From NCBI RefSeq assembly GCF_013410745.1, contig NZ_JACCFY010000001.1:2108001-2172000 (forward strand): a stretch of DNA of 64,000 bases. Reading direction: 5' to 3'. How positions within the stretch are numbered: position 1 is the stretch's first letter; every line of letters begins with the position of its first letter. Of this stretch, positions 52,030 through 63,928 are shown one piece after another. The DNA comes from Nesterenkonia xinjiangensis (GTDB taxonomy: Bacteria; Actinomycetota; Actinomycetes; Actinomycetales; Micrococcaceae). Below the pieces are notes generated by a model that did no database searches, was not told the origin of the DNA, and worked only from the letters and a program-made list of their open reading frames with translations. A program made the position numbers and the translations under genes.

Positions 52030-53256
52030 TCACACCGCCAGCCGGTAGCCCCGCTTGACCACCGTGGTCACCACTCCGGAGGCGGGCAGCGCCTTGCGCA
52101 GCCGCGAGACCCACATCTCCAGGGCATGCTCGGAGTCGCAGTGGCCCAGCACCTGCAGCAGATGCTCCCGGGAGAGCACCGCGCCTTCGGCCTTGACCAG
52201 CGCGCGCATGAGCGCGAGGGGCCCTGGGGCCAGACGCACCGGCCGCTCGGTGACCTCCGGGAAGCGGACCTCGGAGCCACGCATCTCCACCGGGCCGTGC
52301 CGGGTCTCCAGGCGCAGCGTCTGATGCTCCTCGAGATGCTCACAGACCAGCCGGATCATCGCGCCCAGCCGCCAGCGCTGGGGCGTGATCGGCCGGACCC
52401 CGGACTCGTGCAGCGGCGCAGCCGTCACGTCCCCGACGGCGGCGGAGACGACGTCCGAGCGGAACGCCTCCAACAGGGCGGCCGCCCTGCCGTACTGATG
52501 GGCGACCTCCAGGAACGCGTCCACCGCGGGAGCTGCGGTGAAGGTGACGATGTCCAGCTGCCGTTCGATGACGGCGTCGATCATCCGCAGCAGCGCGGAG
52601 TCCTCCTCCGGCTTCGCCCAGGCGTAGGGCATGACCGTGATCACCCGCGCGCCCGCCGACTCGATGCGGGCGATCTGCTCGTGGTCGGTGCGGCCGTGCA
52701 GCTGGAACGCCACGGTCTTCCCGGTGAGGTCCCGGGCCAGCAGCATGTCGATCACCGTGGCGGTGCGCTCGTCGTCGGCGGCGCCGTCGTCGTCGAGCCC
52801 GGCGGCTCGCACTGCGCCGCGCGCCTTGGGGCCGCGCACCAGGATGCTGGAGCCCTCCAGGGCTTCGTGGAGCTCGGTGCCCAGACCGTAGGCGTCGGCG
52901 GCCTCGGCCCACCGGCGCATTCCGTAGGCGGTGGTGATGATCGTGTGATCGGGACGCGCCTCGGTCACCAGTCGGGTGTCCCGCTGCAGCGTCACCGATT
53001 CGGTCATCGGTGCGATGCGCAGCGCCGGGGCATGCATGACCTCCGCGCCACGCCGCTCGAAGGCGGAGATCAGATCCTCGCTGCGGCGGTCCGAGGTCAC
53101 GCCGATGCGGAAGCCTGCCAGCGTCTGCGGCAGTGCGGAGGCCGCCGGCAGCGCAGGGGAGGAGGCGCTGGCGGCAGAGGAGGTGCCGGCGGCAGGGGAG
53201 GGCCGCGGTGTGGGCCTGACCTCGGCGGAGGCGGGAGTGCTGGCGTCCGGACTCAC
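52030..53256 (-). CDS. nnaR: NnaR-like nitrate assimilation regulator (HemD-like domain fused to OmpR-type DNA-binding domain)
   Basis: The 408-residue protein has a low-complexity N-terminus (about 45 residues), then a uroporphyrinogen-III-synthase-like domain (FRIGVTSDRRSEDLISAFERRGAEVMHAPALRI ... IVTFTAAPAVDAFLEVA ... VSAAVGDVTAAPLHESGVRPITP). A C-terminal winged helix follows (LAPGPLALMRALVKAEGAVLSREHLLQVLGHCDSEHALEMWVSRLRKAL..VVTTVVKRGYRLA). This fusion is NnaR, known in Streptomyces as an activator of nitrate/nitrite assimilation. It ends the nirB operon, its GTG start overlapping the methyltransferase stop (GTGA). Confidence 0.88.
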   Translation of the reverse strand: MSPDASTPASAEVRPTPRPSPAAGTSSAASASSPALPAASALPQTLAGFRIGVTSDRRSEDLISAFERRGAEVMHAPALRIAPMTESVTLQRDTRLVTEARPDHTIITTAYGMRRWAEAADAYGLGTELHEALEGSSILVRGPKARGAVRAAGLDDDGAADDERTATVIDMLLARDLTGKTVAFQLHGRTDHEQIARIESAGARVITVMPYAWAKPEEDSALLRMIDAVIERQLDIVTFTAAPAVDAFLEVAHQYGRAAALLEAFRSDVVSAAVGDVTAAPLHESGVRPITPQRWRLGAMIRLVCEHLEEHQTLRLETRHGPVEMRGSEVRFPEVTERPVRLAPGPLALMRALVKAEGAVLSREHLLQVLGHCDSEHALEMWVSRLRKALPASGVVTTVVKRGYRLAV

Positions 53257-54083
53257 CGCACGGCCCCCGCGAGTGCTCGGATGTGCTGCACGCCGTCCTC
53301 GCTGACGAGCATTCGCTCCGGGCCCCGCCGGGCGGCCTCCCCGGTGTCGGGCTCCACAGCGGCCAGCCGGACCACCTCCCCGATCACCAGCACCGCCGGG
53401 GAGCTGATCCGTGCCGCGGCGGCTACGCCCAGGATCTCACCCAGCGGCGCGATCGTGACGCGCTGCTCGGCGCTGAAGCCCTTCTCCACGATGCCCACCG
53501 GGACGCCGTCGGCCATTCCGTGGCGGCGCAGGCCGGTGACCGTGTGGCCCAGGGTGCCCACGCCCATCAGGATCACCGCGGTGCCCCCGACGCCGACCAG
53601 CCCGGCGAGCTCCTCCTCGCTGAGCAGGTCATGGCCGGAGATCACGGTGAACGCCTTGGAGACGCCGCGCGCGGTCACCGGGATGCCGGCGGCCGCGGGC
53701 ACGGCGATGGCCGAGGAGATCCCCGGGACCACGGTGACCGGGACGTGGGCCTCGCGGCAGGCGGCGACCTCTTCGCAGCCGCGCCCGAAGACGAACGGGT
53801 CCCCGCCCTTGAGACGCACCACCGTCTTCCCGGTCCGCGCAGAGTCGATCATCATCTCGTGGATGGTCTCCTGCGGAACCCGGTGATGTCCAGGACGTTT
53901 GCCGACGTCGACCAGCTCCGCACGGGGGGACCAGCTGGGGAGATCATCGGTGGGTGCCAACCGGTCGAAGTAGACGACGTCGGCGGTGGCCAGCGCATCA
54001 CGGGCGCGGACCGTCATCAGGTCCGCGGCACCTGGTCCGCCGCCGACCAGGGTCACCGAGCCGATGGCGGCAGCGGCGCTCAT
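53253..54083 (-). CDS. cobA: Uroporphyrinogen-III C-methyltransferase (SUMT)
   Basis: The 276-residue protein has the SUMT signature blocks VTLVGGGPGAADLMTVRARDAL, VVYFDRL, KRPGHHRVPQETI, VVRLKGGDPFVFGRGCEEV, VVPGISSAIAVPAAAGIPVTARGVS, and GTAVILMGVG. It makes precorrin-2 from uroporphyrinogen III, the first step to sirohaem, the cofactor of NirB, with which it is translationally coupled (ATGA at 54080-54083). No CysG oxidase/chelatase domain is fused, so those steps must be encoded elsewhere. Confidence 0.95.
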   Translation of the reverse strand: MSAAAAIGSVTLVGGGPGAADLMTVRARDALATADVVYFDRLAPTDDLPSWSPRAELVDVGKRPGHHRVPQETIHEMMIDSARTGKTVVRLKGGDPFVFGRGCEEVAACREAHVPVTVVPGISSAIAVPAAAGIPVTARGVSKAFTVISGHDLLSEEELAGLVGVGGTAVILMGVGTLGHTVTGLRRHGMADGVPVGIVEKGFSAEQRVTIAPLGEILGVAAAARISSPAVLVIGEVVRLAAVEPDTGEAARRGPERMLVSEDGVQHIRALAGAVR

Positions 54084-56818
54084 GACGGCACCCCTGCCGG
54101 TGTGACGTCGGCCCGGGCGACGTCGGTCCGGCTGAGCGCGGAGCTCTCACGCACCGGGATGCGCGGACCGGAGAGCAGCACCGGGCCCTCCCCGGCGGCT
54201 GCTGCGGCACGTTCCTCCTCCGTGGCCGGACGGCGCTGGTCGCGCTCGAGCACGTAGGCCAGCCCGGTGTCGGGGGCGTCCGGGGCGTTGACGAAGCTGC
54301 GGAAGCGCCGCAGCTTCTCCGGATCGCGCAGCGTGGCCGCCCATTCGTCCTCATAGCGGTCCACGTGCGTCGCCATGGCGGCCTCGAGGTCTTCGGCCAC
54401 GCCCAGGGTGTCCTTCACCACGACGTCATGGATGTGCTCCACCCCGCCGGGCAGCTCCTCCATCCACCGGGCGGTGCGCTGGAGCCTGTCGGCGGTGCGC
54501 ACGTAGTAGATGATGTAGCGGTCGATGTAGCGCAGCAGGGTCTCATCGTCCAGGTCCTTGGCCAGCAGCTCGGCATGGGCCGGGGTGGCGCCGCCGTTTC
54601 CTCCGACGTACAGGTTCCAGCCCTCGGAGGTGGCGATGACGCCGACGTCCTTGCCGCGGGCCTCGGCGCACTCGCGGGCGCAGCCGGAGACCCCGAACTT
54701 CAGCTTGTGCGGGGAGCGCAGCCCTCGGTACCGCATCTCCAGCTCGATGGCCATCGCCACGGAGTCCTGGACGCCGTAGCGGCACCAGGTGGAGCCTACG
54801 CAGGACTTCACGTTGCGCAGCGCCTTGCCGTAGGCCTGCCCGGACTCGAAGCCCGCGTCGACCAGCTTTCGCCAGATCATCGGCAGCTGCTCCAGACGGG
54901 CGCCGAACATGTCGATGCGCTGGGCGCCGGTGATCTTGGTGTAGAGGTCGAACTCCTGGGCGACCTCGGCGATGGCAGCGAGTTTGGCCGGGGTGATCTC
55001 CCCGGCGGGCACGCGTGGCACCACCGAGTAGGTGCCGTCCTTCTGCATGTTGGCCAGGGCCCGGTCGTTGGTGTCCTGCAGGGCGCCGCGGCCGCCGTCG
55101 AGGATGTACTCGTCGTGCTGGGCGGCCAGCACCGAGGCGATGACCGGCTTGCAGATGTCGCAGCCGAAGTTCACGCTCGGATCGGCCGGAGTGCCGAAGC
55201 GTTCGATGATCTCGGTGAAGGAGGACAGCCCGGTGGCCTGCACCGCCTCGAAGAGCTCGGCGCGGGAGAGGTCGAAGTGCTCGCACAGGGCGTGGGAGAC
55301 CTCCATCCCCTGGGCGACCATCTCCTTCTCCATGATCTTCTTCGCCATCGGCAGGCAGGAGCCGCACTGGGTGCCGACCTTGGTGCACTTCTTCAGCGCA
55401 CCGATGTCCGCGCACGGCGGGGTGGCGCCGTCGCCGGCCACGGCCTTCCGGAGGGTCCCGGCGCAGATGTCCTTGCAGGAGCACACCTGGGCGTCGTCGG
55501 GCAGCTCCAGCTCGGCGACGTCGCCGCCGGCCGCGGAGAGGAAGGCGCCGGGCTCGGCGGGAAGCTCACGGCCCAGCAGCGGACGCAGCGAGGAGTAGGG
55601 AGAGGCGTCGCCGACGAAGATGCCGCCCAGCAGGGTCCTGGCGTCATCGGAGACGACCAGCTTCTGGTAGACGCCGTCCGCGGGGTCGGCGTAGACGACC
55701 TCCAGGGCTCCCTCGGTCTCGGCGAAGCCGTCGCCGAAGGAGGCCACGTCCATGCCGGCGAGCTTGAGCTTCGCGGCGGTGTCGAAGCCGTCGAACTCAG
55801 CGGCCCCTCCGGCCAGCCGATCCGCGACCACCTCTGCCATCGCGTTGGCCGGGGCCACCAGGCCCATGCAGATGTCCTCGAAGCAGGCGACCTCACCGAT
55901 GGCCCACACATGATCCGCCGACGTCGCGCAGGTGGCGTCGATGACCGCGCCCCCGCGGGAGCCGAGCTGCAGCCCGGCATCCCGGGCGAGCTCGTCACGG
56001 GCGGTGATCCCGATGGCGGCGACGATCAGGTCCGCCTCCACGGTGTCCAGGGTGGGGAAGGTCAGGGCGTAGCGGGGCTGGGCTGATCCTGCGCCCGGGG
56101 CAGCGGACGTCTCGGCGGCCGCGTCACGGATCTCCAGGCCGGCGGGGCGCTCGCCGCAGTGGAGGTCGTAGCCCTCCTTCTCCAAGAGTCGGTTCAGGGT
56201 GCGGCCGCCGAACTCGTCGAGCTGGGCGTTCATCAGCCAGCGCTTGGAGTGCACCACGGTGACCTCGGCGCCCAGGCCCTTGAGCCCTCCGGCGGCCTCC
56301 AGGCCCAGCAGTCCGCCGCCGATGACCGCGCACTTCGGGGTGCGTCCCAGTTCGACGCCGAGCTCGGCCACGCGCAGTCGCAGCCAGTCGACGTCGTCGA
56401 GGGTGCGGTAGACCGCGATCTGCTCGGCGCCCTCTAGCCCGGGGCGTGGTGCCGACGACCCGGTGGCCAGGACGAGCTCGTCGTAGCCGAGGGTTTCGCC
56501 GTCGGCGGTGGTGATGGTCTGGGCCGCGGTGTCCAGGCCGGTGACGGCCCGGGAGGTGTGCAGCGTGAGGCTCGGGGACTCCCACAGGCCGGGTTCGCCG
56601 AGGAGGAGGTCGTCGTCGGTGGCGAAGCGCTTGGAGAGGCCCACCCGGTCATAGGGGGGAAGCGCCTCCTCGGTGAAGACGCTGATCCGTGTGCCGGGGA
56701 GCTCCCGGGAGACGAGGGCTTCGGTCAGCCGGTGGGCCGCTGGGCCGCCTCCGACGATGACGATGTGCCGCGGGGCGGCGTCGGTCGGGTTCGGGCTCGC
56801 TGTGCTGGGTGCAGACAT
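54080..56818 (-). CDS. nirB: NADH/NADPH-dependent nitrite reductase, large subunit
   Basis: The 912-residue protein has an N-terminal FAD/NAD domain (HIVIVGGGPAAHRLTEAL, CAVIGGGLLGLEAAGGLKGLGAEVTVV) and a BFD-type [2Fe-2S] domain (VCSCKDICAGTLRKA ... KKCTKVGTQCGSCLP). The sirohaem/[4Fe-4S] ferredoxin-reductase-like domains ligate the cluster by KSCVGSTWCRYG (C-x5-C) and GVSGCARECAEA (C-x3-C). It reduces nitrite to ammonium in the cytoplasm. Unusually the small subunit nirD is not downstream but divergent at 57033. The last 60 residues are low complexity. Confidence 0.96.
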   Translation of the reverse strand: MSAPSTASPNPTDAAPRHIVIVGGGPAAHRLTEALVSRELPGTRISVFTEEALPPYDRVGLSKRFATDDDLLLGEPGLWESPSLTLHTSRAVTGLDTAAQTITTADGETLGYDELVLATGSSAPRPGLEGAEQIAVYRTLDDVDWLRLRVAELGVELGRTPKCAVIGGGLLGLEAAGGLKGLGAEVTVVHSKRWLMNAQLDEFGGRTLNRLLEKEGYDLHCGERPAGLEIRDAAAETSAAPGAGSAQPRYALTFPTLDTVEADLIVAAIGITARDELARDAGLQLGSRGGAVIDATCATSADHVWAIGEVACFEDICMGLVAPANAMAEVVADRLAGGAAEFDGFDTAAKLKLAGMDVASFGDGFAETEGALEVVYADPADGVYQKLVVSDDARTLLGGIFVGDASPYSSLRPLLGRELPAEPGAFLSAAGGDVAELELPDDAQVCSCKDICAGTLRKAVAGDGATPPCADIGALKKCTKVGTQCGSCLPMAKKIMEKEMVAQGMEVSHALCEHFDLSRAELFEAVQATGLSSFTEIIERFGTPADPSVNFGCDICKPVIASVLAAQHDEYILDGGRGALQDTNDRALANMQKDGTYSVVPRVPAGEITPAKLAAIAEVAQEFDLYTKITGAQRIDMFGARLEQLPMIWRKLVDAGFESGQAYGKALRNVKSCVGSTWCRYGVQDSVAMAIELEMRYRGLRSPHKLKFGVSGCARECAEARGKDVGVIATSEGWNLYVGGNGGATPAHAELLAKDLDDETLLRYIDRYIIYYVRTADRLQRTARWMEELPGGVEHIHDVVVKDTLGVAEDLEAAMATHVDRYEDEWAATLRDPEKLRRFRSFVNAPDAPDTGLAYVLERDQRRPATEEERAAAAAGEGPVLLSGPRIPVRESSALSRTDVARADVTPAGVPS

Positions 56819-56879: not shown

Positions 56880-56922
56880 AGCCTAGGGAGGCGCGATTTC
56901 CCTGCCGTATCGCCTTTGTAAA
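56880..56922 (-). promoter_or_regulatory. nirB promoter with GlnR-like phased box
   Basis: On the minus strand: TTTAC-n6-GATAC-n6-GAAAT (56922-56896), then 10 nt, then -10 hexamer TAGGCT (56885-56880). The 5-mers repeat every 11 bp, as in the GlnR consensus GTNAC-n6-GAAAC. Spacing to the -10 equals that at nirD and narK. The leader to the ATG is about 55 nt and contains AAGGTGAGGA. Confidence 0.6.
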
Positions 56923-56972
56923 GCCAGTATGTCGGGGTGTTCAGTGACCGAGAGGCCGCTGCTGAAGCCCTT

Positions 56973-57026
56973 TTCACCACCTGGAAACATGCGCGCACGA
57001 TGAGGGAAACCCTGTGCGCCTAGCGT
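56973..57026 (+). promoter_or_regulatory. nirD leaderless promoter with GlnR-like phased box
   Basis: TTCAC-n6-GAAAC-n6-GCACG-n6-GAAAC (56973-57010) is followed by 10 nt and TAGCGT (57021-57026). The ATG is 6 nt further on. Blocks 1, 2 and 4 fit GTNAC/GAAAC well; block 3 is poor. The box covers the -35 region, where an activator would contact polymerase. Confidence 0.65.
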
Positions 57027-57032
57027 GGAGCC

Positions 57033-57428
57033 ATGACTACAGCACTGCACCTCACCGAAGAGCAGGCCCAGCGGCTCGGCACGGCCGGGGGACAGGCGCC
57101 CGAGGACCGTCCTCATGCGGTCTGCCGGCTCGGGGACCTCGAGCCGCTGTGGGGTGAGGCGGCGCTGGTCGACGGTGCGCAGGTCGCGTTGATCCGCGTG
57201 CCCGGGGACCACGTCTACGCCGTCTCCCAGTGGGACCCGGTCGCAAAGGCCCACGTGATGGCGCGTGGGATCGTGGGCACCAAGGGCGGGCGCCCGACGC
57301 TCGCGTCACCGATCCACAAGCAGGTCTACGACCTCGAGACGGGGCGGTGTCTGAGCGAGGACGGGTTCGCGCTGAGTGTCTTCGCGGTCGCCGTCGATGC
57401 CGAGGGACTCGTCCACGTCACGGCCTGA
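57033..57428 (+). CDS. nirD: Nitrite reductase small subunit
   Basis: The 131-residue Rieske-fold protein (VCRLGDLEPLWGEAALVDGAQVALIRVPGDHVYAVSQWDPVAKAHVMARGIVGTKGGRPTLASPIHKQVYDLETGRCLSEDG) lacks the Cys/His cluster ligands of true Rieske proteins, as NirD does. It is needed with NirB for NAD(P)H-linked nitrite reduction. It is transcribed away from nirB from a leaderless promoter and stands alone, which is unusual because nirBD normally form one operon. Confidence 0.93.
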   Translation: MTTALHLTEEQAQRLGTAGGQAPEDRPHAVCRLGDLEPLWGEAALVDGAQVALIRVPGDHVYAVSQWDPVAKAHVMARGIVGTKGGRPTLASPIHKQVYDLETGRCLSEDGFALSVFAVAVDAEGLVHVTA

Positions 57429-57519
57429 GTCGTGCCGGGGCTCCGCCCTCCCCTCCGGCCCTCCTGGCGCGGTTCGCCGACATCCGGCGACGTTCGGCCG
57501 ACTCTGACCAGAGAACGAC

Positions 57520-57585
57520 GTTCGGCCGTTTCTTCCCCTCCAGAGGCGCGCTGACGCGCTTTCGCAGGGGAAGAAACGGCCGAAC
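57520..57585. terminator. 20-bp perfect hairpin between nirD and the DoxX-like gene
   Basis: GTTCGGCCGTTTCTTCCCCT (57520-57539) pairs perfectly with 57566-57585. The loop itself contains a small GCGCGC/GCGCGC-type stem. A direct repeat, GACGTTCGGCCG, occurs at 57489-57500 and 57518-57529. It lies between convergent stops and is probably a bidirectional terminator. Confidence 0.65.
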
Positions 57586-57630
57586 AACGCGGGAGGGACA
57601 TTCTGGCCGAGCCTTGGTGGGGCCGACCGT

Positions 57631-57990
57631 TCAGAGCACGAGCGTGAGGATCAGTGTGGCGGTGGACAGGGTGAGCATGCCCAGGCAGTTGATCCAGAAC
57701 TCTGACTCCAGGAAACGGGCCTTCACGTGGGCGACGCCGGCCGCGATGAAGTAGGCGATCACGCCCACGTTCGCCGCGATGCCGACGCCGGGGAACCAGA
57801 ACCCGGCGACGAGTCCGATGACGGCAAGGACCTTGACGTAGATGAGGACCCACCACCACTCACGGGGGAGGTTGACACCGGTGAGGCATCGGGCGATGAA
57901 GGTGGCCGGTCTGAGTGACAGGAGCACATCACTGAGCACGACGGCCGCCAGCAGGGCTGCAGGCCACCACGGGGTCGATTCGATGACCAT
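57631..57990 (-). CDS. Small DoxX-like membrane protein
   Basis: The 119-residue protein has four predicted helices (PAALLAAVVLSDVLLSL, WWWVLIYVKVLAVIGLVAGFWF, GIAANVGVIAYFIAAGVAHV, FWINCLGMLTLSTATLILTLVL). The spacing and the KVLAVIGLVAGFWFPGVGIAANVG stretch fit DoxX/DUF-type quinone-related membrane proteins. The function is unknown. ATG at 57990 is chosen because GGGAGG lies 7-8 nt upstream. It sits 157 bp downstream of the FAD/2Fe-2S protein gene in the same direction but has its own possible promoter. Confidence 0.78.
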   Translation of the reverse strand: MVIESTPWWPAALLAAVVLSDVLLSLRPATFIARCLTGVNLPREWWWVLIYVKVLAVIGLVAGFWFPGVGIAANVGVIAYFIAAGVAHVKARFLESEFWINCLGMLTLSTATLILTLVL

Positions 57991-58147
57991 CGTTGTCCTC
58001 CCTCGAGAGCCGACACGTGGTGGCGGTCCCGGCCCGTACCGTGGGTATGGTGCGGACGATACCAGCGCACGGCGTTCGGCAGGGATGCCTGCGGAACCCT
58101 GCACGTACTGACCTCACTCGCAGAGCGATGTCCGGGACGACGGATGC

Positions 58148-59839
58148 TCAGACGACCGCGGGTTCGGCGGGCTCTGCCGCACCTTCCAACATCTTCTCGA
58201 TGTTCCGATGGCAGGTGCCGCAGCCGGTGCCGGCGCGGCAGGCCGCCCCGACCTCCTCCACGGTGGAGCAGCACGACGCCGCCTCCTCCACCTGGCGGGC
58301 GGTCGCCCCGGAGCACCGGCACAGCACGTCGTCGGGACCGAGCTCCGCCTCCTTGGTGGCGTGCTCTGCGGCCAGCAGCGCCGTGCGGTCGGCCACCGGC
58401 AGGGTGCCCCGGTTGCAGTGCAGCGCCAGCTCCGCGGCCGAGCGGGGCATGCCCACCGCGACGAATCCCAACAGGCGCTCGCCTTCGGTGACGATCCGCA
58501 GGTACTGCCCGGCCTTGGGGTCGGACCAGGTGGACACGGTCGGGGACTCCGGATCCCAGGGGTCGACGGCGGTCTCCCCGGCGCAGGCCACCGAGAGGGT
58601 CCGCGACTTCACCAGGATCACATCCAGCTTCCACGGCGCCGTGCCCTCTTGCTGTGTGCTCGCATCCTCGGCCGCGGGCGGCATGGAACCGGCCAGGTCG
58701 ACGGGCCGGCCGGCGGCATCACGTTCCACTGCGGCGGCCAGCTCCAGGTCTGTGCGGATCGCCTCCGCGGCGGCCTCGGCCTGCTCCCAGCCTGGGGCGA
58801 TCAGCCCGCTGGGGTCACGGCCTTCGACGGCGGCGCAGTCGCCCACTGCGAAGACGTGGGGGTCCCCGGTGCTGCGGGACTGCCGGTCCACCGTGATGCC
58901 CCAGGCAGTGGGCAGCCCGGCGTCGTGGGCCAGGCCGTCACGGGGCCGCACCCCGGTGCAGGTGAGCAGCAGGGAGGTCTTGATCTTCTCGCCCAGGGAG
59001 GTGCGCACGGCCGAGAGCCGGCCGTCGTCGGCGACCACCGTGTTCACATCGCAGGCGGAGCGCACGTCCACCCCGGCGGTGAGCAGCTGGCGGCGCAGCA
59101 GTATCCCGGAGTCGGTGTCGATCTGACGGCCCATCGGCACGGTCCCGCGGTGCAGCAGGGTCACCGCGCCGCCGACCTCGGCGATCGCCAGGGCGGCCTC
59201 GACTCCGAGCACGCCGCCGCCGAGCACCACCACGGGCTCTCGCCGCTGCACGATCGTCAGGATCCGGCGGGCGTCGTCGAGGTCACGCAGCGCCATCACC
59301 CCGTCCGGGTAGCGCCGCGGCTCCTCGGGCTGCGCCTGCGGTGCGCGGGAGCGGCGGCCGGCGGAACGACCATTGGCCTTCATGGTCAGCTCGGCATCGA
59401 TGTGTCCGTCGCGGCGCATCTCCAGCGTCATGCGCGGGGTGGTCGGCTCCGCGCCGGTGGCGAGGACCAGCTTGTCGTAGTGCAGGATGCCGCCGTCGTC
59501 GAGGGTGACGATGCGGGAGGCGGCGTGCAGCGCGGTGGCGGTGACCCCGCAGCGCACCTCGACTCCGGCGCCGCGCAACTCGGCCTCATCGGCCAGCGCC
59601 AGATCCTCCGGTGCCGCCCGCCCCACGCTGACATCGCCGATCTTGATGCGCTGATAGGCCGGGACGCATTCGGTGCCCACCACGGTCAGGCGCAGTCGGC
59701 CCGAGGCGACATGCCCGCTCAGCTCGTCGACCAGTCGGGCGGCCACCGGGCCGAAGCCCAGCACCACCACATGCGGGGCGGCATCGGGGCCGGATCCGGA
59801 GCGGGTGCCGGCGGGCAGGGAGGAGGTCGACGGGGACAT
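58148..59839 (-). CDS. NAD(P)/FAD-dependent oxidoreductase with BFD [2Fe-2S] domain (NasB-like electron-transfer protein)
   Basis: The 563-residue protein has an FAD site (VVVLGFGPVAARLVDEL), an NAD(P) site (VVVLGGGVLGVEAALAI), and FAVGDCAAVEG. A middle ferredoxin-reductase-like segment follows, then a C-terminal BFD-like cluster domain (VLCRCSGATARQVEEAASCCSTVEEVGAACRAGTGCGTCHRNI). This matches the FAD/2Fe-2S protein that passes electrons to assimilatory nitrate reductase. Its ATG overlaps the nasA stop (ATGA), so both are made together. A loop rich in Arg/Gln/Pro (SAGRRSRAPQAQPEEP) interrupts the first half. Confidence 0.88.
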   Translation of the reverse strand: MSPSTSSLPAGTRSGSGPDAAPHVVVLGFGPVAARLVDELSGHVASGRLRLTVVGTECVPAYQRIKIGDVSVGRAAPEDLALADEAELRGAGVEVRCGVTATALHAASRIVTLDDGGILHYDKLVLATGAEPTTPRMTLEMRRDGHIDAELTMKANGRSAGRRSRAPQAQPEEPRRYPDGVMALRDLDDARRILTIVQRREPVVVLGGGVLGVEAALAIAEVGGAVTLLHRGTVPMGRQIDTDSGILLRRQLLTAGVDVRSACDVNTVVADDGRLSAVRTSLGEKIKTSLLLTCTGVRPRDGLAHDAGLPTAWGITVDRQSRSTGDPHVFAVGDCAAVEGRDPSGLIAPGWEQAEAAAEAIRTDLELAAAVERDAAGRPVDLAGSMPPAAEDASTQQEGTAPWKLDVILVKSRTLSVACAGETAVDPWDPESPTVSTWSDPKAGQYLRIVTEGERLLGFVAVGMPRSAAELALHCNRGTLPVADRTALLAAEHATKEAELGPDDVLCRCSGATARQVEEAASCCSTVEEVGAACRAGTGCGTCHRNIEKMLEGAAEPAEPAVV

Positions 59840-62112
59840 CACGGGGTGGTCTCCTTCGAGGATGTGGTCTCGGACCGAGCAGCGCCGGCGACGCCGGCCG
59901 GGCGAATCGTCACCGGGGTGTTCTTGAACTCGGGCATCCCGCTCTGCGGGTCGGTCAGCGCCCGGGTGAGCAGGTTCGCGGTGCCCTGCCCGGCGTAGTG
60001 GAAGGGCGCGAAGATCGTGTCGGTGCGGATTCCGGCGTCCCACACCACGCGGGCGGTCATCTCACCCTGGGCGTTCGCGATGACGGCGTCTGCGCCCTCC
60101 TCGAGGCCGTGCTCCAGCGCCGTGGCGGGGTGGACGGCGATGGTCGCCTCCGGGTGGGCCTCCAGCAGCGCCGTCACGCGTCGGGTCTGGGTGCCGGATT
60201 GGTAGTGCTCCATGTGTCGCCCGGTGGTCAGCGTCAGCTCGCCTGGCGCCGGGGCGGGTGTGCGGCCAGGTGTGATGGCGATCAGCCGGGCTCTGCCGTC
60301 CGCGTGGGCGAAGCGTTCCAGGAACATCCGGGAGGTGCCGATGATCGGCTCCCCGGTCAGAGAGGACTCCCCGCCGAGCAGTGCGGACGGGACCGGCCAA
60401 TAGGCGGCGTGGCCGTCGTCGAGGAGCTGCCAGTCCAGCCCGGAGTAGTCTGCGGCCGCCCCCTCGGTGGCCTGTCGGATCTCCGCGAACACCTCGGCGG
60501 GCTCCACAGGGAAGGTGCTGGAGCAGCCGAGACGGCGGGCCAGCTCATGCCAGATCCACAGTTCGGAGCGTGGTCCTGAGTCCGGTGCGCCTGTGCCCGG
60601 CCCCTCGGAGCCCGGTGCGGACGACGGCGGCTCCACCAGCTTCCGCCGGCGCAGCACCCGCCCTTCCAGACTGGTCATCGTGCCGTCCTCCTCGGCCCAC
60701 TGCAGCACCGGCAGGACCACGTCAGCCTCCGCGGCGGTCTCGGAGAGGAAGAAGTCGGCGACCACCAGCAGCTCGAGCGCCCGCAGGTTCTCCACCACGC
60801 GGGCGGCGTCGGGGGCGGAGATGGCCACGTTGGAGCCATGGACGAGCAGCGCACGGACGCCGTCGTCGTGGCCCATGGTGTGCAACAGCTGTGCGGCGGG
60901 TCTGCCGGGGCCCGGGAGTGCCTCGGGCTCCACACCCCAGATCCGCGCCATATGGGCGCGATCGGAGGGGTCGGTGATGGAACGGATGCCGGGCAGCTGG
61001 TCGGTCTTCTGGCCCATCTCGCGCCCGCCCTGCCCGTTGCCCTGCCCGGTGAGGGTGCCGTAGCCGCCGGCGCGGGTGCCGGGCAGGCCGAGCAGCAGGG
61101 CGAGGCTGATCGCCGCGCGGGCGGTGTCGGTGCCGTCCTTGTGCTGCTCCACCCCACGGCCGGTGAGGATGTACACCGGGTCGCCGCCGTTGCGCGCCGC
61201 GCGGGCGGCGTGGCCCAGTCGGCGGGCGATCAGGCGGATCTGATCCGCCCCGACTCCGGTGAGCGACTGGGCGCGCTCGGGCCACCACTGGGTGACCGAA
61301 CGGCGGAAGGAGTCGAGCCCGCTGACCCGCTGCTGCAGGTAGTCGGCATCGGCCAGACCCTCCTCCAGGACAACCTGCGCCACGGAGAGCAGCAGCACCA
61401 GGTCCCCGCCCGGGGCGGGGGCGATGTGCAGGCCGCCGCCCTCAGCGGTCAGCTCGGCGGTGTTGCTGCGCCGCGGGTCCACCACGATCAGCCCGCCGGT
61501 GGCACGGGCGCCCTCCAGATGCTGGACGAAGGGCGGCATGGTGTCGGCGACGTTGGATCCCAGCAGCAGCACGGTGCAGGCGGAGTCCAGATCAGTGAGC
61601 GGGAACGGCAGGCCACGGTCCAGGCCGAAGGCCAGGGTGGAGGCTTTGGAGGCGGAGGACATGCAGAATCGGCCGTTGTAGTCGATCTGTGCGGTGCCCA
61701 GAGCCACGCGGGCGAACTTGCCCAGGGCATAGGTCTTCTCATTGGTCAGCCCGCCAGATCCGAAGACGCCGACGGCGTCAGCGCCGCGCTCGCCCTGGAT
61801 GCGGCGGATCTCGGTGGCCACGCGCCCCAGCGCCTCCTCCCAGGAGGCTGGGTGCAGTTCGCCGTCCTCCCCGCGCAGCAGCGGGGAGGTGAGCCGGTCG
61901 TGACGGCGGGTCAGCAGCTCGGCGGCGGTGCTGCCCTTCCGGCAGAGCCGGCCCTTGTTGGTGGGGAAGGAGGCTCCCTCCACCGCGAAGGTGTCCGGCT
62001 CGCCGGGACGTTCGGTGACGGTCAGGTTCATGGCGCACTGCAGGGCGCAGTACGGGCAGTGCGTCTGCACGGTCCTGCGTGGCATGGTGCGGGTGTCCGC
62101 CGTCGTGGTCAT
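59839..62112 (-). CDS. nasA: Assimilatory nitrate reductase catalytic subunit (molybdopterin)
   Basis: The 757-residue protein has an N-terminal [4Fe-4S] motif (HCPYCALQC ... GRLCRKG). Mo-bis-MGD domains include [62 protein letters not shown] and [26 protein letters not shown]. The C-terminal beta-barrel contains [18 protein letters not shown], typical of NasA/NarB. It reduces nitrate to nitrite in the cytoplasm. It is 61 bp downstream of narK and coupled to the FAD protein gene. No C-terminal BFD domain is fused. Confidence 0.94.
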
Positions 62113-62173
62113 CGGGGAAGCTCCTGCTCGATCAGCTGGGCTCTGTCTGCCTGGCCGTGGGGTGCTCGGCCGC

Positions 62174-63646
62174 TCAGACGTTGGCCTTGGCGTAGATTGT
62201 GCCTGGTCGCATGTAAACGGCCCATGTCAGGAATGCAAAGCCGATGTACGCGGCGGCGAAGCACCAGAAGGCGACGTCGAAGGTGCCGGTGGCGTTGTGG
62301 GAGAAGTTGAGGATCTGCGGGATGGCGAACCCTCCGTAACCCCCGACGGCGCCGATCAGGCCCAGCGCGGCCGAGGCCTTGCGCTCGTGGCCGACCCTGT
62401 CTTCGGGCTTGACGGAGAGCCGGAAGACCAGCGGGATCATCCGGTAGCTGGAGCCGTTGGCCACTCCGGTGAGGGTGAACAGCATCAGGAACAGCAGCAG
62501 GTAGAGCCAGAAGCTGGCCATCGGCAGGGTGAGCACGACGCCGGCGGTCACCACGGCCATGATGAGGAAGCAGACCACGGTGACCCGCGCGCCGCCGATG
62601 CGATCGGCGAGCCTGCCCCCGTAGGGGCGGGACAGCGAGCCGACCAGGGGACCCATGAACGCCAGCGAGAGCGCGGCCCCCAGGACCTGGAAGCTGGAGA
62701 ACTCCGGGAAGGTCATGTTGATCAGGGTGGGGAACACCGAGCCGAAGCCCATGAAGGAACCGAAGGTGCCGATGTAGATCACGGCGATGACCCACATGTG
62801 CTTCTCCTTCAGCGTGGAGAGCGAGCCCTTGATGTCGTTCTTCGCGTGGGACAGGTTGTGCATGTACTTCCAGGCGCCCCAGGTGGCCAGCAGGATGAAC
62901 GGAATCCAGAACAGCCCGGCCATGGGTAGGTTGGGCTGGAAGGTCCCGAAGGCGAAGGCGGTGACCACGATGGGCACGGTGAACTGGGCGACGGCGACTC
63001 CGAGGTTTCCGCCGGCGGCGTTGACGCCCAGTGCGGCGCCCTTCTCCTTGGCCGGGTAGAAGAAGGTGATGTTGGCCATCGAGCTGGCGAAGTTGCCCCC
63101 GCCGAAGCCGGCCGTGGCGGCGATGGCGAAGAGCACCCAGGTGGGGGTCTCCGGGTTGCCGAGGGTGAAGGCCATCGCGGTGGTGGGGATGAGCAGCAGA
63201 AGGCCGGAGACGATCGTCCAGTTCCGGCCGCCGAACAGGGCGACGGTGAAGCTGTAGGGCACGCGCAGAGTCGCTCCGACCAGCGGCGGCAGAGAGACCA
63301 GCCAGAACTGCTGGGAGGTGGTGAGGTCGAAGCCGACCTGCGGCAGGAACACCACGGTGACCGACCACAGCTGCCAGACGGCGAAGCCGAGGAACTCGCA
63401 GAACACCGACCAGATGAGGTTCAGCCGTGCCGTGACTCGGCCGGGACCTTCCCAGAACCTCACGTTCTCGGGCTGCCAGTTGGTGATCCACCGGCCGCGC
63501 TCCACGACCAGCCGGTCCTCGGGGCCGGTGCTGCCCTCCGTCGGGCGGGGCGGAGCGGCATCGGGTGCTCCGGGGCTGCGGCCTGTGTCGGCGAGCTCGT
63601 GCTCGGCGTCGGTGGTGGGTCCGGTGCTGTAGGGCTGCGGGGTCAT
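62174..63646 (-). CDS. narK: Nitrate/nitrite transporter (MFS, NarK type)
   Basis: The 490-residue protein has 12 helices and both nitrate-signature regions: GFGGGNFASSMANITFFYPAKEKGAALGVNAAGGNLGVAVAQ and GAVGGYGGFAIPQIL. It also has the conserved RLNLIWSVFCEFLGFAVWQLWSVT first helix and PYSFTVALFGGRNWTI. The first 60 residues are Pro/Ala/Thr-rich. ATG at 63646 has AGGA 6 nt upstream; an earlier in-frame start at 63769 would lie upstream of the promoter box. It is first in the narK-nasA-FAD protein operon. Confidence 0.95.
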   Translation of the reverse strand: MTPQPYSTGPTTDAEHELADTGRSPGAPDAAPPRPTEGSTGPEDRLVVERGRWITNWQPENVRFWEGPGRVTARLNLIWSVFCEFLGFAVWQLWSVTVVFLPQVGFDLTTSQQFWLVSLPPLVGATLRVPYSFTVALFGGRNWTIVSGLLLLIPTTAMAFTLGNPETPTWVLFAIAATAGFGGGNFASSMANITFFYPAKEKGAALGVNAAGGNLGVAVAQFTVPIVVTAFAFGTFQPNLPMAGLFWIPFILLATWGAWKYMHNLSHAKNDIKGSLSTLKEKHMWVIAVIYIGTFGSFMGFGSVFPTLINMTFPEFSSFQVLGAALSLAFMGPLVGSLSRPYGGRLADRIGGARVTVVCFLIMAVVTAGVVLTLPMASFWLYLLLFLMLFTLTGVANGSSYRMIPLVFRLSVKPEDRVGHERKASAALGLIGAVGGYGGFAIPQILNFSHNATGTFDVAFWCFAAAYIGFAFLTWAVYMRPGTIYAKANV

Positions 63647-63737
63647 GATGTCCTGCTCTCCTCCGCGCAGTGGCGGGCACGTGATGGAACCTGCGGGGTC
63701 TCGTTCGGAGGGACGGATCGTCCTCACGGTGATGTCC

Positions 63738-63780
63738 AGAGTGCCAAGGTGGTGTTTCGCCGTGTGCATCGGGGAGTTTC
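63738..63780 (-). promoter_or_regulatory. narK promoter with GlnR-like phased box
   Basis: On the minus strand GAAAC (63780-63776), n6-ATGCA-n6, GAAAC (63758-63754), then 10 nt, then CACTCT (63743-63738), a weak -10 (A2, T6). The two GAAAC blocks are 22 bp apart, as at nirD. A further weak block, TTTTC, lies 11 bp upstream. The leader to the ATG is about 85 nt. Confidence 0.55.
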
Positions 63781-63928
63781 AGGCAGGAAAAACCAGCCTC
63801 ATCACGGAGTGATCCCAGGGTGAGGTGCCCAGGAGGTGGGCTCCCATCCCTCCCGGCAGGGGTTCGGGGATTGCTATGGTCAGGCCCAGCGGCGGCAGAC
63901 GGACGCCGGGCGAAAGGGCGGGGTCATC

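Follow-up and report, generated by a model that had tools for sequence, protein, structure and literature searches.

In the 64,000-nucleotide stretch of the Nesterenkonia xinjiangensis genome analysed here, hereafter the window (assembly GCF_013410745.1, contig NZ_JACCFY010000001.1, positions 2,108,001 to 2,172,000), the promoters of three nitrate assimilation genes, nirB, nirD and narK, share one strict geometry. Half-sites of 5 nt, of the type read by the regulator GlnR, follow one another every 11 bp, the last of them ends 10 nt before a -10-like hexamer, and a palindrome of the type read by the regulator NnaR lies just upstream in the same register. We regard it as highly probable that these are class II promoters of a nitrogen regulon, on which GlnR would bind the 11-bp array and NnaR the upstream palindrome.

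Read towards its gene, the nirB promoter (reverse strand) runs CTGAA-n6-GACAT-n6-TTTAC-n6-GATAC-n6-GAAAT-n10-TAGGCT, that of nirD (forward strand) CTGAA-n6-TTCAC-n6-GAAAC-n6-GCACG-n6-GAAAC-n10-TAGCGT, and that of narK (reverse strand) ATGAG-n6-TTTTC-n6-GAAAC-n6-ATGCA-n6-GAAAC-n10-CACTCT. The slots of the array are called, in order, slot0, s1, s2 and s3, the last three forming the core, with s3 ending 10 nt before the -10. Adenine stands at position 4 in 7 of the 9 core half-sites of the three promoters, the exceptions being GCACG (nirD) and ATGCA (narK). The elements are located as follows, in window positions, the scores in bits being those of the weight matrix described below.

56880-56885, reverse strand: -10 hexamer of nirB, TAGGCT, read from the sequence.
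56896-56922, reverse strand: core GlnR-type array of nirB (TTTAC 56918-56922, GATAC 56907-56911, GAAAT 56896-56900), 37.6 bits.
56929-56933, reverse strand: slot0 half-site of nirB, GACAT, a single lattice step above the core.
56940-56966, no strand assigned: NnaR-type dyad TTCAG-N17-CTGAA shared by nirB and nirD, with 17 nt between either half and the first core half-site on its side.
56973-56977, forward strand: slot0 half-site of nirD, TTCAC, read from the sequence.
56984-57010, forward strand: core GlnR-type array of nirD (GAAAC 56984-56988, GCACG 56995-56999, GAAAC 57006-57010), 35.7 bits.
57021-57026, forward strand: -10 hexamer of nirD, TAGCGT, with an ATG 6 nt further on.
63738-63743, reverse strand: -10-like hexamer of narK, CACTCT, poor, read from the sequence.
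63754-63780, reverse strand: core array of narK (GAAAC 63776-63780, ATGCA 63765-63769, GAAAC 63754-63758), 10.8 bits, with a weak middle site.
63798-63824, reverse strand: NnaR-type palindrome of narK, CTCAC-N17-ATGAG, 9 of 10 letters, its near half 17 nt before the core.

An earlier note on this DNA had described 5-mers phased every 11 bp at the three promoters, the last one 10 nt upstream of a -10-like hexamer, and both descriptions proved exact on reading the sequence. The 10-nt gap is moreover kept in relatives. A first set held the best 30 of the nirB matches of the family, and in all 30 the best three-site array had gap 10, with a minimum score of 16.8; 600 dinucleotide shuffles favoured no gap, their 99% score being 15.5 and 1 of the 600 reaching at least 16.8, and the maximum array score in 120 coding stretches was 14.2. 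A second set of 80 named loci (Nesterenkonia, Citricoccus, Arthrobacter and kin, Kocuria, Sinomonas, Cryobacterium, Agromyces, Clavibacter and others) gave gap 10 in 76 under the first scoring. Under the final scoring, in which any gap from 4 to 18 was allowed, the nirB gap over all 110 loci was 10 in 108, 11 in locus L091 and 18 in L097, the last having an incomplete sequence in the gap count and carrying GCAAC-n10-TAACGT, so that 108 is kept as computed. At nirD, gap 10 was found in 89 of the 110 loci.

The same ruler was sought at further genes. At glnA, 27 of 30 loci exceeded the null 99% score, and gap 10 was best in 21 loci, all of them among these 27; at narK it was best in 15 of 30, none of them exceeding that score, and 14 of 30 amtB loci had it as their best gap. 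Among the gap-10 promoters (a choice that leaves out 2 nirB, 21 nirD, 15 narK, 9 glnA and 16 amtB loci, here and in the slot counts below), a TTGACA-like -35 element with at least 5 matching letters stood at the usual distance from the predicted -10 in 1 of 108 nirB, 0 of 89 nirD, 0 of 15 narK, 0 of 21 glnA and 0 of 14 amtB promoters, an absence that is expected if an activator takes the place of the -35. We thus consider the 10-nt ruler, as far as comparison of sequences can tell, firm at nirB, nirD and glnA and likely at narK; the -10 of amtB is unconvincing, and amtB is not counted as proof of the ruler.

How specific the pattern is for nitrogen genes was judged in the genome itself, a single contig of 3.57 Mb with 68% GC. 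The exact motif GAAAC-n17-GAAAC occurs there 3 times and 0 times in a backward control; the sites lie before nirD, before narK and 108 nt before the sole PF00909 (amtB) match. Since about 1.5 sites are expected from base composition, the count is not the signal, which resides in the fact that all three precede nitrogen genes. Likewise, one of the three glutamine synthetase-type genes (L078) has GTTAC-n6-GAAAC-n6-GTGAC-n6-GAAAT-n10-TACCGT upstream. A weight matrix was built from 193 gap-10 units of nirB, nirD and glnA in other genomes, with the own genome left out and no narK or amtB promoter in the training, and was run over both strands of the window and 20 further stretches of the own genome (464 kb; two of the 20 picked for containing glnA and amtB), allowing any gap from 4 to 18. 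As the training units were chosen for gap 10, the gap is built into the matrix and the scan tests place, not gap. Five gap-10 places, and only these, reached at least 10 bits, namely glnA (43.5), nirB (37.6), nirD (35.7), amtB (25.0) and narK (10.8), and the top score outside them at any gap was 10.3 bits. The earlier note had held that occurrence of the motif in coding DNA as often as before nitrogen genes would count against it; with three of three exact matches before nitrogen genes and five gap-10 places in 464 kb, the outcome does not refute it. That ordinary sigma-A promoters came to share this geometry by chance, as the near-expected count of the exact motif, the near-background score of narK taken alone and the one shuffle that attained the weakest nirB score might suggest, seems to us extremely unlikely: the spacing is constant over 110 loci, all exact matches precede nitrogen genes, the -35 element is absent from the promoters, and for nirB, nirD and glnA chance is already contradicted by the shuffles, the gaps of the relatives and the matrix scan.

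The earlier note had covered three or four slots and not the element upstream of them, a palindrome whose near half-site lies 22 bp, i.e., two lattice steps, above the first core half-site and hence one step above slot0. Among the gap-10 promoters, a GTGAG slot (at least 4 of 5 letters) is present in 83 of 108 at nirB, 80 of 89 at nirD and 13 of 15 at narK, with 0 of 21 at glnA and 0 of 14 at amtB; a half-site-like slot0 is found in 90 of 108 (nirB), 87 of 89 (nirD), 21 of 21 (glnA), 14 of 14 (amtB) and 7 of 15 (narK). Because the two counts differ by gene in this way, four putative GlnR-type slots (three at many narK promoters) form the common core, to which the nitrate genes add a predicted NnaR half-site as a fifth 11-bp step. 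In the 19 of 30 narK loci where the palindrome is clear, its middle is N 17 in 15, its distance to the array is 17 in 15, and both hold in 11. A loose coupling of the two NnaR half-sites, also considered, was not sustained in view of the 15 of 19 narK loci with N 17, which fits a dimer with a set spacing.

The region between nirB and nirD is almost symmetrical, its elements running -10, n10, array, dyad, array, n10, -10. A tblastn search with the own NirD placed nirD in divergent orientation to nirB in all 110 loci, and the relatives carry CTCAC-N16 to N19-GTGAG between the two genes at the same distances to the arrays. In the 84 loci with two good near half-sites, the dyad N is 17 in 35, 18 in 35, 16 in 6, 19 in 6, 20 in 1 and 137 in 1. 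On a NirB tree, for the 81 of 109 rows with everything measured, the dyad N changed 6 times, the nirB-side distance 4 times, the nirD-side distance once and the nirD gap twice; L036 was left out for its short protein, and the rows were selected for nirB gap 10, which makes the 0 changes of that gap void. As separate observations, the nirB and nirD arrays stand apart in L036, L045, L108, L132 and L144, with palindrome and array elements separated and, by eye, seemingly duplicated; in part of Nesterenkonia (L081, L082, L083, L088, and 56940-56966 of the window) the near half-site has changed from GTGAG to CTGAA or CAGAG, the distance still being 17; and narK of N. xinjiangensis retains CTCAC..ATGAG while the nirB/nirD half-site has drifted.

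It could be argued that GlnR acts alone and that the upstream palindrome is a relic or a site for something else, since the dyad of this genome departs from the consensus and some Arthrobacter-type loci are without the near half-site on the nirB side. We consider this very unlikely. NnaR is required for nitrite use in mycobacteria, according to the consulted part of PMC6277429; the GTGAG slot is retained at nirB, nirD and narK and absent from glnA and amtB; and the narK palindrome persists, although no mirrored array is seen there in the own genome.

For the array itself, the genome encodes a GlnR (L005, with PF21695 and Trans_reg_C domains; best solved-structure match 8hih, an entry with four chains). 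It also encodes L006, a putative MtrA, with the receiver and OmpR-type domains of a response regulator. It might be MtrA, or a different regulator of the OmpR type, rather than GlnR that mainly binds the arrays, whether to repress or to activate. The gene set of glnA, amtB, nirB, nirD and narK, together with the adjoining NnaR site, fits GlnR, and an MtrA that competed for GlnR sites would add to GlnR without replacing it; we therefore hold this unlikely, even if the motifs and DNA-binding domains of GlnR and MtrA are reported as nearly identical and MtrA binds the mycobacterial nirB promoter (PMC6277429, in part). The earlier note proposed a nitrogen regulon controlled by GlnR and/or NnaR, in which the fixed distance points to contact with the polymerase; comparison supports this proposal, with GlnR encoded and the same ruler at glnA and at amtB (poor -10). 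Its open "and/or" can be refined with the support of the element it had left unnoticed: GlnR would sit on the 11-bp array and NnaR on the palindrome just upstream.

Several observations weigh against GlnR and NnaR acting on one fixed lattice. By itself narK is close to background (10.8 against 10.3 bits), and its hexamer CACTCT makes a poor -10. Of the 110 loci, 11 have a nirD gap of 11, and 10 have a value other than 10 or 11. At amtB, gap 10 appears in 0 of the 7 loci above the null 99% score, the gaps there being 13, 16 and 17. The dyad between nirB and nirD in the own genome matches CTCAC/GTGAG in just 3 of 5 letters per half. The loci are related by descent, so the counts are not independent events. 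Finally, gap 10 was best in 8 of 28 further loci of the phylum and in 1 of 15 more upstream regions. As to where the longer nirD gap occurs, gap 11 was noted in L030, L035, L037, L042 and L046 (genus g7; an extra G before TAGCGT) and in L111, L127 and L129 (Sinomonas).

The phylum search behind those further loci drew on 56 of 396 genomes at E up to 1e-100. Among the phylum loci, L161, L162, L163, L167 and L168 have strong arrays whose gap is 10 or ties at 10. For 8 loci of the genus labelled f6/g40, a scan for two sites ranked gap 10 top in 4 and second in 2 and had no entry for the other 2, one proximal pair reading GCGAC-n6-GCAAT-n10-TANNNT; in genus f5/g39, gap 10 was best in 0 of 11 loci. 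A phylum-wide gap rule was rejected on the counts of 8 of 28, 1 of 15 and 0 of 11. By these counts, the predicted rule holds for Micrococcaceae and several Microbacteriaceae and is patchy outside them.

From the direct evidence, namely the sequences, the spacings, their conservation and the presence of GlnR and NnaR-type genes, we infer binding, activation, contacts, signals, operon and feedback along the following lines. GlnR protomers would line up head to tail on up to four half-sites spaced by 11 bp (slot0, s1, s2, s3). Because the last half-site ends 10 nt before the -10 hexamer, GlnR would fill the place of the missing -35, from where it could contact sigma region 4 as well as further parts of the polymerase. 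With a start assumed about 7 nt after the hexamer, s3 would span -27 to -23, s2 -38 to -34, s1 -49 to -45 and slot0 -60 to -56, and the near NnaR half-site -71 to -67. At the nitrate genes only, an NnaR dimer would occupy the CTCAC-N17-GTGAG-type palindrome in register with GlnR, and the two regulators would probably be read jointly, GlnR reporting nitrogen shortage and NnaR nitrate or nitrite. A single NnaR dyad may serve nirB and nirD in both directions and thus lead to co-expression of both enzyme subunits, and, since nnaR belongs to the likely nirB operon, the loop is probably self-reinforcing. More tentatively, and as something we hold possible rather than probable, NnaR may be the next link of a GlnR filament, one dimer coupling two mirrored GlnR-polymerase complexes at nirB-nirD so that both subunits fire together.

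The comparison with known systems draws on parts of the sources cited. For Streptomyces coelicolor, GlnR boxes (a-b-a-b) and a GlnR activation complex are described with 5-nt half-sites every 11 bp, four of them at glnA, as here, and with four GlnR protomers head to tail with polymerase and adenine at half-site position 4; in that portion of PMC10704036 no fixed distance to the -10 is given, whereas in the present set nearly all nirB promoters have 10 nt. In M. smegmatis the NnaR motif is CTCAC[AC]-N16-[TG]GTGAG and lies close to the GlnR motif at similar spacing (PMC6277429); for S. coelicolor and M. tuberculosis it is given as CTCAC..GTGAG with a middle of 13-16 bp (PMC11162112). The NnaR-GlnR promoters of M. 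smegmatis, M. abscessus and S. coelicolor resemble those described here in having the palindrome upstream of the GlnR motif at nirB and narK and leaderless features (PMC6277429, PMC11162112). They differ in two respects: here the near half-site keeps exact 11-bp register (17 nt) with the array, and the divergent nirB and nirD genes, with their mirrored arrays, have one dyad between them, while narK3-nirB-nirD-nnaR-sirB of M. abscessus is a single operon. Further afield, the class II promoters of Salmonella PhoP likewise carry OmpR/PhoB-family direct repeats over the -35, there 12 (once 11) nt from the -10 and active only in phase, yet with two half-sites instead of up to four plus a second regulator (PMC3335776, in part); PhoP serves as the comparison because the literature search returned no figure for PhoB box spacing. 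Many E. coli ArcA sites consist of three to five direct repeats whose centres are 11 bp apart, but according to the part of PMC3798270 consulted they are without a conserved place or orientation relative to the promoter, and the sites here have both.

GlnR boxes, NnaR palindromes and a spacing described just as fairly conserved between them (PMC6277429, in part) are thus known, and the exact lattice and the shared dyad look new: neither the lattice to the -10 nor the nirB-nirD dyad was found in the open literature covered. As how NnaR senses and activates "remains a mystery" in the words of PMC11162112 (in part), the strict lattice and its natural variants (dyad N 16-19, nirD gap 11, separated Arthrobacter-type elements) make NnaR-GlnR cooperation a question of spacing. 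Additionally, the lattice provides a sequence rule for locating GlnR/NnaR promoters and -10 elements in actinobacteria without expression data.

The genes served by these promoters, and their neighbours, are the following.

52030-53256, reverse strand: nnaR-type gene with HemD and OmpR-type DNA-binding domains (HEM4, Trans_reg_C; PRK07239 437.7 bits, above cut-off).
53253-54083, reverse strand: uroporphyrinogen-III C-methyltransferase (siroheme), profile match above cut-off, overlapping the end of nirB.
54080-56818, reverse strand: nirB, nitrite reductase large subunit (TIGR02374, above cut-off in a profile search).
57033-57428, forward strand: nirD, nitrite reductase small subunit (TIGR02378, above cut-off in a profile search).
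59839-62112, reverse strand: NasC-like assimilatory nitrate reductase (NF047855 630 bits, below the cut-off of 1100), downstream of narK.
62174-63646, reverse strand: narK, nitrate/nitrite transporter (NarU/NarK-type models, below cut-offs).

The name NnaR was assigned from the HemD plus OmpR-type domain architecture. The nnaR-type gene overlaps the preceding methyltransferase gene, and as the ORFs overlap in series from nirB through the methyltransferase gene to nnaR, the three likely form a single operon. The closest named NirB proteins are those of Nesterenkonia, with up to 91% identity. The nirD transcript is probably leaderless, given that its ATG comes 6 nt after the -10 hexamer; among the 100 loci whose nirD gap is 10 or 11, the first in-frame nirD start after the hexamer falls at 5-9 nt in 32, 10-40 nt in 23 and beyond 40 nt in 43, with none in 2. 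The 531-aa ORF of narK starts at 63769, inside its own promoter; the ATG at 63646 is the likely start codon.

Around these genes, a NirB-like FAD/NAD(P) oxidoreductase with a BFD-type [2Fe-2S] domain (58148-59839) adjoins the nitrate reductase and is probably its electron donor. A gene for a DoxX-like membrane protein (57631-57990, reverse strand) has nirD on one side and the nitrate reductase cluster on the other. On the 3' side of nirD, at 57519-57586, lies a near-perfect hairpin made of the 17-mer TTCGGCCGTTTCTTCCC and its reverse complement (arms 57521-57537 and 57568-57584); its arms have no other copy genome-wide at up to 1 mismatch. With a fold of -70.6 kcal/mol and a z of -6.0, it is possibly a terminator separating nirD from the converging DoxX-like gene.

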